From Muribaculaceae bacterium (GTDB lineage: Bacteria; Bacteroidota; Bacteroidia; Bacteroidales; Muribaculaceae), in the NCBI GenBank assembly GCA_022484565.1, contig JAKVKZ010000014.1, positions 1 through 57,646 on the forward strand: a stretch of DNA of 57,646 nucleotides, given 5' to 3'. The translations under genes and the position numbers were made by a program. Of this stretch, positions 5,142 through 10,247 are shown piece after piece. The notes beneath the pieces were generated by a model, which did no database searches, was not told where the DNA came from, and was given only the letters and a program-made list of their open reading frames with translations. Position 1 is the first letter of the stretch, and each line of letters starts with the position of its first letter.

Positions 5142-6320
5142 ATGAAGACAAATATAGGAGTGTTTTTCGGTGGACGCAGCACCGAGCATGAAATTTCGGT
5201 GATATCGGCATCGCAGGCAATGCATGCCATCAACCGCGAAAAATATGACGTAACGCCAATATATATCACCAAACAAGGCAAATGGTACACCGGCGATGCA
5301 CTTTTTGAAGTGAAGAACTACCGCAATGTGCCTGAACTGCTGAAACAATGCGAGGCAGTGTATATGGAGCCATGCTTCGACGACTACAACCTCTACAAAT
5401 GCAAGAAGGCAGTGTTCGGCTCGAACGTGCTCACTCACCTTGACGTGGTGATTCCAGTGCTTCACGGCTCGAACGGCGAGGACGGAATATTTGAAGGCGT
5501 GCTTGAGACAATCGGAATACCTTACGCCGGCTGCAACACAGTGTCGAGCGCAAACGGAATGGATAAAATCACGATGAAGATGATACTGAAATCGTGCGAT
5601 ATTCCTGTGGTGGATTATTTGTGGTTCACCGACAAACAATGGTTTGCCGAGAAAGATGCGCTGATTGAGAAAGTGGAGAAGCAACTTGGCTATCCAGTAA
5701 TTGTGAAACCAGCCAACCTCGGTTCGAGCGTCGGAATAGGCAGAGCCACCAACCGCGAAGAACTTATGGAGAAAGTTGACGGCGCAGAAATATATTCGAC
5801 ACGCATAATCGTGGAAGATATGGTGGAGGAATTGCAGGAAATCAACTGCTCCGTGCTTGGCGATACTGACGAACACCAATCGTCGGTACTGGAAGAACCA
5901 ATAAAGAGCGGAGAAATTCTTTCCTACCAAGACAAATATATGGGCGGAACAAAGGGCGCAAAAGGAATGCAGGTGTCGCAAAAGCGTATTCCTGCCGATT
6001 TGCCAGAAGCAGAGACCAAGCGCATCCAATTCCTTGCCGGCGAGACTTTCCGTGTGCTTTCGTGCCACGGTGTGAGCCGCATCGACTTCATGATTGACCG
6101 CAAAACACGCGACATATATGTGAACGAAATCAACACCATTCCTGGGTCGCTGTCGTTCTACCTTTGGGAAGCTACCGGCATCAAGTTTGACGAGTTGATG
6201 GATAAACTTGTGCAACTTGCCTTGAAGCGTAAACGCGAGATGGGCATGAAGACGGTGAGCTACGACCAAAACATTTTCAGCCTCGGAAAAGGACTGAAGG
6301 GCGGGAAAATGCAGAAATAG
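5142..6320 (+). CDS. ddl: D-alanine--D-alanine ligase (ATP-grasp)
   Basis: Joins two D-alanines using ATP for peptidoglycan precursors. The N-terminal FFGGRSTEHEIS (8-19), HGSNGEDG (108-115), and ATP-grasp segment VKPANLGSSVGIG (188-200) are typical of Ddl. The omega-loop residues Lys265-Tyr266 (DKYMGG) follow the D-Ala-D-Ala type rather than the D-lactate type, and FMIDRKTRDIYVNEINTIPG supplies the magnesium ligands. At 392 residues it is longer than most Ddl enzymes (about 310-370). It starts 30 nt after the Mur ligase, so it probably provides the dipeptide for that ligase. It may be an extra copy beside a housekeeping ddl elsewhere; the window cannot settle this. Confidence 0.9.
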   Translation: MKTNIGVFFGGRSTEHEISVISASQAMHAINREKYDVTPIYITKQGKWYTGDALFEVKNYRNVPELLKQCEAVYMEPCFDDYNLYKCKKAVFGSNVLTHLDVVIPVLHGSNGEDGIFEGVLETIGIPYAGCNTVSSANGMDKITMKMILKSCDIPVVDYLWFTDKQWFAEKDALIEKVEKQLGYPVIVKPANLGSSVGIGRATNREELMEKVDGAEIYSTRIIVEDMVEELQEINCSVLGDTDEHQSSVLEEPIKSGEILSYQDKYMGGTKGAKGMQVSQKRIPADLPEAETKRIQFLAGETFRVLSCHGVSRIDFMIDRKTRDIYVNEINTIPGSLSFYLWEATGIKFDELMDKLVQLALKRKREMGMKTVSYDQNIFSLGKGLKGGKMQK

Positions 6321-7065: not shown

Positions 7066-8328
7066 CTATTCCTTTAAGCAATTGATGGGAACGACAAAAA
7101 CGCCATCCTTTCGCCGATAGGCTGCACCAGTACCTGTCAAAACCATCATAAATGACGGCCCTTGATTGTCCTTTATATCAGCTTTAAGTTTCTGCATATT
7201 CTCGGCCCCTTCCTCTATAAGTTTTTCTCCTCCGAGCTTCATCTCGATGAGTGCCCATCTTCCATCTTCGAGATGCACTACGGAGTCACACTCTAATCCA
7301 CGGCTATCACGATAATGTTTTACCTCTCCACCTCTTAGCATGGAATATATTTTGAGGTCTCTTACGGCCATATCTTCAAAGAATAGACCAAATGAATTCA
7401 AATCATTTATCAAATCACTCGGCTTTATGCCAAGAGCTTGACAAGCAATGCTGGTATCCACAAAATGACGAGTCGAAGTGGAGCGAACAACTGCTTTTGA
7501 ACGGAGATTTGGATTCCATGCATCTAAATCATCCAAAATATAAAGGTCTTTGAGTGCATCCATGTAATCGTCAAATGTCTTTGAATCCATCGTTCGATTA
7601 TTAGATGCTGACACGTCAGCTATTAGCGTTCGATACGCAGCCTCGGTAGATATGTTGCGCGCATAACTTCTCAGAATCATCCGCATCATTTCTGGACTTT
7701 TGTTGCGGAACTTCTTGTTTTCACTGTTTTCAAAGTTGAAAAGACCTTGATAGTAGTTACTCGTAACGTCCAGGGCTACCTGTCTGTCAGGCTGAACTGA
7801 TAGCGGCCAACCACCTCTACATATCAGATAAGCTAAATCGGAAAGACTCCAATCTTCGTTTAAATCAAAAATAGACATTGAGGGATTATCAAACAGAGCA
7901 TTGAGGGAGACGGTTCCTCGAGAGTCCAAAGATTCAGCAAGACTCATGGGGCGCATCATCAATGTGACGATTCGTCCAGCACCACTATGATGAATCTCGG
8001 TCTTATCGGCAGGGGTGCTACTACCCGTGAGTATAAACTGCCCAAACTCTGGTTTTTCGTCAATCCATTCTTTTGCAACATTCCATATATCGGGCACTGT
8101 CTGCCATTCATCAATAAGACGTGGCTGTTCACCTATCAAAACATTGCGAGGCTCCAACCTTGCAAGCTGAATCTTCTGGTTAGTATTCAGCTTAATAGAA
8201 CTCTTAGCGAACTTCTCTGATGTTGTTGTCTTGCCGCAAAACTTAGGTCCACTGACCAGTACTACACCTGATGATTTCAGCCTTCGCTCTATCTCGTGTT
8301 CGATATATCTATTTAAATATTTTGTCAT
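7066..8328 (-). CDS. AAA ATPase with DUF4143-type C-terminal domain
   Basis: A 420-residue protein of the AAA_14/DUF4143 family, abundant in gut Bacteroidales and mostly of unknown function. The Walker A segment VSGPKFCGKTTTSEK is near residues 26-40, Walker B is LIDEWQ, and ILTGSS follows. The C-terminal half carries the DUF4143-like nuclease-fold signature, with ECDSVVHLEDGRWALIEMK resembling a PD-(D/E)xK active site. The start was set at the ATG at 8328 because the -7 promoter box overlaps the upstream TTG at 8349. Five phased repeats lie immediately upstream. It stands alone between converging intergenic regions. Suggested roles in the family include mobile-element or defence functions, but none is shown here. 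Confidence 0.85.
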   Translation of the reverse strand: MTKYLNRYIEHEIERRLKSSGVVLVSGPKFCGKTTTSEKFAKSSIKLNTNQKIQLARLEPRNVLIGEQPRLIDEWQTVPDIWNVAKEWIDEKPEFGQFILTGSSTPADKTEIHHSGAGRIVTLMMRPMSLAESLDSRGTVSLNALFDNPSMSIFDLNEDWSLSDLAYLICRGGWPLSVQPDRQVALDVTSNYYQGLFNFENSENKKFRNKSPEMMRMILRSYARNISTEAAYRTLIADVSASNNRTMDSKTFDDYMDALKDLYILDDLDAWNPNLRSKAVVRSTSTRHFVDTSIACQALGIKPSDLINDLNSFGLFFEDMAVRDLKIYSMLRGGEVKHYRDSRGLECDSVVHLEDGRWALIEMKLGGEKLIEEGAENMQKLKADIKDNQGPSFMMVLTGTGAAYRRKDGVFVVPINCLKE

Positions 8329-8346
8329 GACTATCTGTTTTGAGTG

Positions 8347-8377
8347 CAAAGATAGCCATTATTATTAAAATTCCCAA
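8347..8377 (-). promoter_or_regulatory. Promoter of the DUF4143 ATPase
   Basis: On the minus strand TATCTTTG (8347-8354) is a perfect TAnnTTTG -7 box. TTGG (8374-8377), 19 nt upstream, can serve as the -33 box and lies inside the first of the five 17-bp repeats. The leader to the ATG at 8328 would be only about a dozen nt. Confidence 0.65.
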
Positions 8378-8478
8378 GATTGTTGAGATGAAATTCCTAA
8401 GATTATTGACTTTTTATTCCTAAGATTGTTGAGAATAAATTCCCAAGATTGTTGACTTTTGATTCCCAAGATTGTCAA
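8370..8478. repeat. Five 17-bp repeats at exactly 23-bp spacing
   Basis: Near-identical copies of ATTCCCAAGATTGTTGA start at 8370, 8393, 8416, 8439 and 8462. Copies 2 and 3 have CCTAAG for CCCAAG, copy 2 also has ATTATTGA, and copy 5 ends ATTGTCAA. The 6-nt spacers alternate: purine-rich after copies 1 and 3, CTTTTT/CTTTTG after copies 2 and 4. The proximal copy overlaps the -33 position of the ATPase promoter, so the array looks like an iterated protein-binding site. Confidence 0.85.
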
Positions 8479-8501
8479 TTCTTATTCTGGACCAGACTGA
8501 A

Positions 8502-8558
8502 AAGTGGCACTGAAAGGGTTTCAGTTAATCTGATTTTTCTACCTTTCAGTGCCAACTT
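8502..8558 (-). terminator. Hairpin terminator after the S41 peptidase gene
   Basis: Perfect 12-bp inverted repeat: GGCACTGAAAGG (8506-8517) with CCTTTCAGTGCC (8542-8553), 24-nt loop. It lies just downstream of the minus-strand S41 gene. The T-run on the minus strand is short (CTTTTC), so it may act as an mRNA 3' stabiliser as much as a terminator. Confidence 0.55.
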
Positions 8559-8606
8559 TTTGTGGTGCAATACTTCTTTTTACTTGTGAATGGAAAGAGG
8601 AGCGTG

Positions 8607-10247
8607 CTATTTATTACCTATTAACTTGATGGTATAATCGAGAGCATCCTTTTCGGGGACTTGGAAGTCGGGAATAGTGCCTTGGATGTCGGTTTCGTCA
8701 GCATCATATTGCCAGAAACGCTTGTAGGAAATGCCGCAAGTGAGATGCGAAACTGGCAGAGTGTATTCGAGACGGTCGCCGAAACAAACGTTCATGCCTC
8801 CACTTTCCTCACCGATTATTGTTCCCATCTTGAACTGCTTGAAAGCCCAAGAGAAAGAGCCTGCTGAAGAGAAGGTGTTGTGGCTGATGAGGAGGTAAAC
8901 TTTGCCGGTGAAGCGCAATGGATTGCTTTGCAATGGGATGAGCGAAGTGTTATCGCTTGATTGATAGTACCAGTTAGGAGTGGAGCGTGTTGAACCGAGC
9001 AATTTTTGAGTGGTGGGAGTGATGCGCATAATGGCGCGACCGAACTGCTGGAAAGGCACTGGAGAGATGTATTGGAACAATACATCGCCAACTTCGGAGA
9101 TGCCACCGCCATTGTGACGGATGTCGATAATCAAATCGTTGATTTTATTTTTCTTTAGAACGGTGAACATGGAGTCGGCAAACGACTTCATCTTTTGAGG
9201 ATTGGAGAAACTACGGAAATCCATGACGGCAATTTTCTTACCTTTAATTATGCGGAGAGAATAATAGGGTTTTGCGGAATTCTTGGATTTTTCGCCACTC
9301 ATCCTTGACTCTGATTCAGCTACAGTCATCGGCAGCAGCGTCGTCTGGCGGGTTTGCCCCTTATATTCATAAGTGACGTTATATTTATCGGCTTTATAAA
9401 GTGACTGAAACAATGCGATATTGATGTCGTGCAGACGAATAAGCTTGAAGAAATAGCGTTCGCCACTGGCATAGCGCATCATGTTGGCAGCAATGTCCTT
9501 GTAACTGTTGCCATTGACGGAAAGCACTTTTGCACCGATAGGGATGATATTGTCGATGCAACTTGTGACGGTGAAAGTGGAATCGTTTGAATCAACATCG
9601 AGAATTAAAGGCATGCGCTTTAAAGTGCTGCGAGCATTATTGTCGGAGAAAATATGGTAAGGGAAATTCATTGAGGTGTGCCCGTCGCCAATAAGCGTGA
9701 CCAGCGGGGCAATGCGATTGTAGAGTTCGACGTCGGTCAATGAATCGGGAAGAGAACCCTTAACGTCGCTGACAGCCTGAAGATATGCGCCCTGATTGCA
9801 AACTGAAAACATGTTGGGATGGACTTGGCTGATGGTGTAAATCAGTGCATCAATGTCGAATTTAGCCTGAGCGCGGCTCAATTTGCCACTGGCTGCCACT
9901 TTAGTGATTTCTTTGGGGGCATCTTCGAGAGGGTTGGGCGACACCCATTTGATTTGTGTGAAGGCAGAGTCCTTGCCATTGAGAAGGACTACAAAATTAG
10001 TGGATTCATTCGTCTTGCCACTGAAAGTAATGGTGTCGATATCACTTGCAAAGGTGACGAATTGGGCAGAAGACTTATAGACATCAAGACCTGCCGGCGG
10101 CCAAGCCACCCATTCTGATGACGACAATCGGCCATTCTCAAAGATTTTGAGATGGGGGTCGTTGGCTTTCAAAATTGGTTGAGAGGAAAATGCCGAAAAT
10201 GCAGTTGCAAAAATCAGCAAAAACAGAGTAAATGATTTTTTCATCAT
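8607..10247 (-). CDS. Secreted S41-family (C-terminal processing) serine peptidase
   Basis: A 546-residue exported peptidase. The start at 10247 gives a clear signal peptide (MMKKSFTLFLLIFATAFSAF) and removes a 26-residue extension without signal character. A unique N-terminal region (to about 115) is followed by the S41 core: DALIYTISQVHPN, GDGHTSMNF, a PDZ-like section around VLSVNGNSYKDI, IIDIRHNGGG, and the catalytic Ser segment HNTFSSAGSFSW with SSAG near residue 460. This resembles tricorn/photosystem-II-processing-like peptidases, acting in the periplasm or at the surface. It is monocistronic with a hairpin downstream. The substrate is unknown; scavenging of peptides is possible. Confidence 0.85.
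   Translation of the reverse strand: MMKKSFTLFLLIFATAFSAFSSQPILKANDPHLKIFENGRLSSSEWVAWPPAGLDVYKSSAQFVTFASDIDTITFSGKTNESTNFVVLLNGKDSAFTQIKWVSPNPLEDAPKEITKVAASGKLSRAQAKFDIDALIYTISQVHPNMFSVCNQGAYLQAVSDVKGSLPDSLTDVELYNRIAPLVTLIGDGHTSMNFPYHIFSDNNARSTLKRMPLILDVDSNDSTFTVTSCIDNIIPIGAKVLSVNGNSYKDIAANMMRYASGERYFFKLIRLHDINIALFQSLYKADKYNVTYEYKGQTRQTTLLPMTVAESESRMSGEKSKNSAKPYYSLRIIKGKKIAVMDFRSFSNPQKMKSFADSMFTVLKKNKINDLIIDIRHNGGGISEVGDVLFQYISPVPFQQFGRAIMRITPTTQKLLGSTRSTPNWYYQSSDNTSLIPLQSNPLRFTGKVYLLISHNTFSSAGSFSWAFKQFKMGTIIGEESGGMNVCFGDRLEYTLPVSHLTCGISYKRFWQYDADETDIQGTIPDFQVPEKDALDYTIKLIGNK

Follow-up and report, generated by a model that had tools for sequence, protein, structure and literature searches.

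A 23-bp stepped repeat array as the probable private operator of an AAA_14-DUF4143 ATPase gene in a Muribaculaceae genome

The window, that is, the whole stretch of 57,646 nucleotides analysed here from a draft genome of a Muribaculaceae bacterium (contig JAKVKZ010000014.1), carries on its minus strand the gene of an AAA_14-DUF4143 ATPase, preceded by five short direct repeats that reach into its predicted promoter. The features of this locus are as follows.

7066–8328, minus strand: AAA_14-DUF4143 ATPase gene, 420 aa, PADLOC candidate PDC-S01 (Pfam PF13635, E 7.9e-27; PF13173, E 7.6e-16; PDLC04790, E 2.2e-63)
7087–7401, minus strand: predicted PD-(D/E)XK nuclease domain, residues 310–414, with E318, D348 and E362-x-K364, from the model and fold matches
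7522–7695, minus strand: predicted winged helix-turn-helix, residues 212–269 (AlphaFold2 model, mean pLDDT 94.1)
7579–7587, minus strand: D248-S249-K250 at the start of the predicted recognition helix, with 248 and 250 covarying with the DNA core
7930–8268, minus strand: AAA_14 ATPase domain, residues 21–133, with Walker A G27-K33-T34 and Walker B D73-E74
8347–8377, minus strand: predicted promoter TTGG-N19-TATCTTTG (TTGG at 8374–8377, TATCTTTG at 8347–8354)
8370–8386, minus strand: repeat unit 1, promoter-proximal, exact match, reading TCAACAATCTTGGGAAT on the gene strand and holding the TTGG of the -33 region
8393–8409, minus strand: repeat unit 2, exact to the degenerate motif
8416–8432, minus strand: repeat unit 3, exact to the degenerate motif
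8439–8455, minus strand: repeat unit 4, exact match
8462–8478, minus strand: repeat unit 5, promoter-distal, two mismatches

Both Pfam domains lie well over their cut-offs (94.4 and 58.7 bits vs 28.1 and 27), and the PDLC04790 profile, which also matches 63/63 proteins of the subfamily described below, spans the full length of the window protein. The start codon is likely the ATG at 8326–8328, at which the N-termini of homologs align, and not the TTG at 8349 that opens the longest ORF. G27, K33, D73 and E74 are invariant in all 63 subfamily proteins, as are E318, D348, E362 and K364, and T34 is nearly so. In the AlphaFold2 model, an NB-ARC-like ATPase is combined with a winged helix (helices 212–224, 232–243 and 249–261, then the wing), as in the STAND or archaeal ATPase group, and a fold comparison of the model finds resemblance of the ATPase to Cdc6/Orc1 among others. 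The C-terminal domain is modelled with an alpha-beta-beta-beta-alpha-beta topology and has both the core topology and the E/D/ExK residues of PD-(D/E)XK enzymes, on which grounds the protein may be a working nuclease. A sequence search of solved structures returned no match at E <0.5 and nothing better than E 0.56, and an NCBIfam search with the window protein gave no match.

The 17-bp repeat occurs five times between 8370 and 8478 on the minus strand, which is the strand of the gene, with a start-to-start step of exactly 23 bp. Four copies match the degenerate motif ATTCCYAAGATTRTTGA without mismatch and the fifth has two mismatches, so that the strictly spaced, near-identical repeats described in an earlier, sequence-only reading of this DNA were found as described. 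A sixth match to the motif, with three mismatches, lies at 1382; six matches were reached in 0 of 100 shuffles of the window (mean 0.79, largest 5). That reading had also held that occurrence of the repeat at unrelated loci would weaken any link to the gene. In the 2.95-Mb draft genome of the organism, zero-mismatch sites are confined to the four array copies and the next-best site elsewhere is a single one with one mismatch, and a dispersed repeat or microsatellite is therefore rejected. A CRISPR array was likewise set aside, since the repeats are 17 bp long and are separated by 6-bp spacers of two recurring types, with no unique spacers of repeat length. An inverted repeat with 18-nt arms (89% complementary) and a 24-nt loop, at 8500–8559, separates the array from the S41 peptidase gene; it is probably the terminator of the peptidase gene and would shield the array from read-through.

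Arrays upstream of related genes were scored by the best self-match of the upstream DNA, i.e. the score of its ungapped self-alignment at offsets of 15–60. The same genome holds 18 DUF4143 genes, most of which have their own upstream array of different sequence. Among the 17 with complete upstream DNA, 14 score at least 13 (L031, L036 and L043 fall below), vs 2 of 107 control upstreams (Mann-Whitney p 8e-8), and one of these two controls precedes, as read by eye, another such ATPase without a DUF4143 hit. At L052 in this genome (contig C2, ~5950–6110, reverse strand), three GTTATnnnnnAAGTAAC-like inverted-repeat units with a 32-bp step stand before a 400-aa ATPase, which looks related by eye and is missing from the PF13635 hits in that genome.

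Two sets of relatives were compiled. The first comprised 122 loci taken by locus list (L031–L048 of the own genome and L069–L173, less four numbers); L089, L090, L095, L123 and L172 dropped out without a usable ORF, and 115 distinct genes remained. Sixty-three of these, of at least 400 aa and nearest to L034, L035, L037 or L038, form the subfamily set; they are distinct, full-length and 37–67% identical, and belong to the order of the window organism except one, which is from its class. Fifty-nine of the 63 have their best offset at 23 and the other four at 46, and 57 score at least 12; among 315 Markov shuffles of the same upstreams, 23 or 46 was best in 3.5% and the 99% score was 12.5. For the second set, 80 named loci were used, many from metagenome assemblies, with Bacteroidales, Treponema, Lachnospiraceae, Erysipelotrichaceae, Fibrobacter, Gardnerella and Alphaproteobacteria among the sources; four loci were dropped for less than 150 nt of upstream DNA. 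In the 76 remaining, the best offset is 23 in 65, 46 in five and 22 in three; one is masked, and L205 and L209 are exceptions with none of these offsets. One genome is present in both sets (L108 and L247 are identical). The arrays that the first interpretation leads one to expect upstream of homologous genes were thus seen, with a best offset of 23 or 46 in 63/63 genes and of 22, 23 or 46 in 73/76. The 46-bp super-period that had been suggested from the alternating spacers is, by these counts, a local feature: it is real in the window array, for which Tandem Repeats Finder reports a higher share of matches at period 46 (88%) than at 23 (77%), and it is not general in relatives.

The 23-bp step extends further. 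Plasmid and phage-labelled relatives, including those of Collinsella and Prosthecochloris, have it in 9/9 cases; L259 has it as well, but was found by its array. At 25–30% identity, a 23-bp array is present in three of six relatives (Actinomyces, Spartinivicinus and Lentilactobacillus, not Neorhizobium, Rhizobium and Thermus). In a sister subfamily of ~450 aa the step is 33 bp in 21 of 27 genes and 32 bp in one (of 30 loci fetched, 27 entered the scoring; upstream DNA was short at L290, L277 and L281 had no usable ORF, and L280 was masked). The array step is hence a clade constant of 23 or 33 bp, two values that differ by roughly one turn of the helix. Of 52 DUF4143 genes outside the 23-bp subfamily, only 20 score at least 12, and therefore arrays are not universal in DUF4143. 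Other designs exist in the own genome: in L042, L044 and L048 the units are palindromic, for example GGTTATAACC, and recur every 39–41 or 32 bp, which suggests dimeric binding in those subfamilies, and L041 (G000:C15) has its own 33-bp array together with a second row of GATAGGAAA-type repeats further upstream. In the reverse direction, a generic three-unit pattern, which is strict and misses most arrays, retrieved four arrays from 149 genomes, and its reversed control retrieved none; all four adjoin a subfamily gene, three at its 5' side and one at its 3' side. Decoy arrays in phages were considered as well: a scan of viral contigs with this pattern gave six matches, one adjoining such a gene and five without.

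The anatomy of the unit was derived from 139 genes, of which 138 were distinct and 126 had an offset of 23 or 46 and a score of at least 11; ten of these 126 arrays were registered by hand. Two to seven in-phase copies, mostly three, are present in 125 of the 126. Folded into 23 columns, the arrays share a common frame of roughly GCCAAwTnnCsrAAtrAAA, in which columns 7–11 are mixed between genes and 90–96% constant inside one array. Core differences rise as protein identity falls, from 10% of positions at >80% identity to 27% at 70–80% and >50% below, and the core differs even among four paralogs in one genome. It was considered that selection might act against similar operators in one genome, a proposal that the data do not support: 35 co-resident paralog pairs differ on average at 51% of core positions, vs 56% for all pairs in the same range of protein identity. 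None of these 35 pairs has an identical core.

The variable core follows the protein. Among 414 x 23 pairs of protein residue and DNA column, the two with the highest corrected mutual information join residue 250 to column 10 and residue 248 to column 11, and residues 248–250 lie at the start of the last helix of the modelled winged helix, the predicted recognition helix. K/R250 is paired with G at column 10 in 25/27 genes, D250 with C in 26/32 and N250 with A in 11/18, E250 being undecided (C in 11/27, G in 15/27), and D248 is paired with G at column 11 in 37/42. The window conforms to these pairings, its protein having D248 and K250 and all its unit copies GG at columns 10–11. As a guard against shared descent, core bases were predicted from proteins <62% identical only; none of the 414 protein columns then does better than residue 250 at DNA columns 9, 10 or 11, where it reaches accuracies of 0.80, 0.73 and 0.65 vs 0.78, 0.54 and 0.59 for the runner-up, and it is still first when the analysis is repeated without the ten hand-registered arrays. 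Two further tests are less favourable. In tree-based co-change, residue 250 is first only for the pooled core 9–11 (22 of 34 changes coincide, p 4e-7; runner-up residue 381, p 3e-6), and for single DNA columns other pairs lead, with residue 127 and column 21, outside the core, first and residue 250 with column 11 fifth. When 94 genes served for training and 32 from other phyla for testing, residue 250 predicted column 10 with an accuracy of 0.66, vs 0.44 for the nearest protein, and ranked only fourth to seventh among protein columns. The K/R250 genes amount to only three clusters under 55% identity.

These pairings bear on who reads the array. It had been suggested that the repeats are an iterated operator for the ATPase itself or for a partner; the first possibility is favoured by the power of residue 250 in the winged helix to predict the core bases of its own array, and for the second no recurrent neighbour gene was found, no neighbour family being present in more than 5 of 80 loci. 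The latter count also disposes of a partner-gene operon of the type II toxin-antitoxin or restriction-modification kind, with an antitoxin or methyltransferase gene. An unlinked regulator, of which the ATPase gene is merely a target, would have some precedent in the Collinsella plasmid relatives, in which a small helix-turn-helix regulator gene is located just upstream of the DUF4143 gene (L297, 1624–1812; L302, 1635–1856), but these genes also have the 23-bp array. With a core that varies from gene to gene, even among paralogs of one genome, each gene would need a regulator of its own, and the bases would still track a residue of the ATPase. It is thus quite unlikely that another protein is the reader.

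As for the promoter, the TTGG-N19-TATCTTTG element noticed earlier is present on the minus strand, with its TTGG inside the promoter-proximal unit and its TATCTTTG box 26 nt from the ATG; by its consensus, we take it to be a Bacteroidales-type promoter. A sigma-70 scan of 8250–8700, which is uninformative for promoters of this type, gave one promoter-like site vs 1.7 expected. Across the family, a TAnnTTTG box follows the last unit in 80 of 126 genes, and the distances between the two are helically phased, recurring about every 11 bp (Rayleigh R 0.80 at 11.2 bp; null 99% 0.34). Clusters of this distance at 19–22 and 28–31 nt place units on the core promoter. Because the last unit in the window covers the -33 region, we infer autorepression by occlusion. 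The main alternative is that the protein binds the array but activates its gene, or does both depending on dose. Phased distances to the -7 box would suit contact with RNA polymerase, and C proteins of restriction-modification systems, as far as they are described in the available part of PMC3874152, do both. The unit lying over the -33 element of the window and the two distance clusters on the core promoter fit occlusion better, and an activating role is accordingly judged improbable.

Array and gene appear to form a solitary mobile cassette, judging from where homology between related loci ends. Two 99.6% identical copies in one genome have 1391 bp in common, beginning 119 nt ahead of the ATG and ending 9 nt past the stop codon. 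One of them has a 188-bp piece of a host gene on both sides; on the 5' side this piece is a truncated ORF of 70 aa, and on the 3' side it forms the beginning of a longer, 246-aa reading frame. In 11 of 15 pairs of relatives more than 78% identical (same-record repeats excluded), homology ends at -73 to -155 of the ATG and at -7 to +11 of the stop codon; most such pairs are ~80% identical, a level at which non-coding DNA fades anyway, and therefore the 99.6% pair weighs most. One pair of Treponema loci also shares its flanks. Direct duplications of 25 to 372 bp between the 5' and 3' flanks were found at 34 of 118 loci, vs 5 of 125 control genes, and inverted ones at 0 of 118; some of the direct ones repeat the array itself on the 3' side. 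Duplications like those of insertion with long target duplication are in this way visible at the level of the family, but not at the window's own locus, where flanks of 500/1800 or 1500/3000 nt contained no duplication. A second copy of the window's cassette was sought in its own genome, with only a 314-bp, 66% match inside a paralog as the result. In one genome, three subfamily cassettes lie close together (G236:C1, 1761007–1767385; L134).

At 11 of 126 loci (L075, L085, L099, L110, L113, L121, L126, L127, L132, L217 and L231), the gene's own motif also forms an array on the 3' side, in every case in the same orientation, and at L075, L121 and L217 the DNA before the 3' array repeats the 5' flank. 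A pure promoter operator leaves these 3' arrays unexplained. Together with the flank duplications and with the pair of near-identical copies that share just array and gene, they would be natural if arrays were mainly ends or landing sites for cassette movement, their position at promoters being secondary. On the other hand, 115 of the 126 loci lack a 3' array, the window's locus lacks a flank duplication, and the helical phasing to the -7 box would stay unexplained, which makes this account very unlikely. That the array is the iteron set of a cryptic replication origin is scarcely credible: direct repeats at about one per two helical turns and winged-helix initiators are a hallmark of iteron plasmids in what is available of PMC4980987, and the ATPase fold recalls Cdc6/Orc1, but the cassettes are single, lie in many unrelated contexts without a recurrent neighbour, number several per genome, and usually lose homology at the array and the stop codon, and therefore no replicon travels along.

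Taken together, the five repeats at 8370–8478 are probably the private operator array of the adjoining AAA_14-DUF4143 gene, whose product would bind each unit and repress its own promoter. The protein would contact each 23-bp unit with its own winged helix, a direct binding that the residue-base pairings point to, and since the step is kept although the sequence changes, molecules may assemble cooperatively side by side on the array. Wrapping of the DNA by the bound protein, as proposed from the rotation of successive sites around the helix, could accompany such assembly. Bound protein would then occlude the promoter, with repression rather than activation as the presumed outcome. Array and gene appear to move as one solitary cassette, and with an operator of its own an incoming cassette could be expressed even where relatives are already resident, an idea put forward for the incompatibility groups of C proteins and iterons.

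A more far-reaching, self-addressing version of this reading is speculative and, as a whole, rather unlikely. In it, the STAND-like ATPase-nuclease would park on its private array as a rigid filament stepped at 23 bp (or 33 bp), the array serving as repressor site and, at the same time, as an antidote made of DNA that holds the nuclease in check. If the array were lost, or titrated by DNA that invades or replicates, the protein would be released, would raise its own production and would attack DNA. One or two residues of the recognition helix would diversify the operators into incompatibility groups, allowing many cassettes per genome, and the family would represent a large class of mobile cassettes, immune or selfish, that consist of a single gene.

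Self-operators and iterons are already known; a private, fixed-step array that belongs to a predicted ATPase-nuclease cassette and whose code can be read in part was found nowhere in the literature searched, which left subscription papers and preprints outside. No arrays upstream of the DUF4143 family are described in the titles and abstract openings that these searches returned; DUF4143 is named in only one paper of that literature, and COG1373 in seven, each time as a single mention. The nearest parallels are the operators of C proteins and the iterons bound by plasmid Rep proteins such as RepE and pi. Iterons are direct repeats in helical register that a winged-helix protein binds cooperatively, with repression of its own gene possible (PMC4980987, in the part available). 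Phased direct repeats are found here too, and reading of the array by the gene product is suggested by covariation. The present case differs from iterons in several respects: no origin or replicon was seen, the protein is predicted to be a STAND-like ATPase carrying a nuclease domain, site sequences are particular to each family member, and the array sits directly on the promoter.

As with C proteins and self-repressing methyltransferases, a system predicted to cut DNA would control its own expression through a helix-turn-helix protein and its operator. In contrast to restriction-modification C proteins, one protein would be both regulator and predicted nuclease, there is no methyltransferase or partner gene, and long phased arrays replace a pair of operators. 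For C proteins, operator specificity is described as the basis of incompatibility (PMC3874152, in part), and by analogy this would account for the separate code of each cassette. The gene-specific arrays would also offer a natural series of orthogonal regulator-operator pairs. Compared with the archaeal STAND-like ATPases SSO1545 and PABY2304 and the NB-ARC proteins CED-4 and Apaf-1, the present proteins differ by an attached PD-(D/E)XK-like domain and by private DNA arrays.

For insertion with long target duplication, the reference is reportedly Nobusato 2000, from the Kobayashi group. Restriction-modification units flanked by long, variable direct duplications are described in the accessible text of PMC3031569; the cassettes share such flanks, but consist of a single ATPase-nuclease gene and its array instead of a restriction-modification unit, and would be a new instance, beyond restriction-modification, of genes that move with long flanking duplications. 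PDC-S01, to which the subfamily belongs as a candidate by its PDLC04790 matches, is reported to rank fourth in frequency among the defence systems, candidates included, of prokaryotes, most PDCs still awaiting validation; that account, in the part available, mentions no upstream array or regulation of the kind seen here (PMC12988326). For this very common, uncharacterised candidate defence family, a private operator array would provide the first testable mechanism, and with a partly readable residue-to-base code, the DNA bound by each protein would become predictable and the family directly testable.
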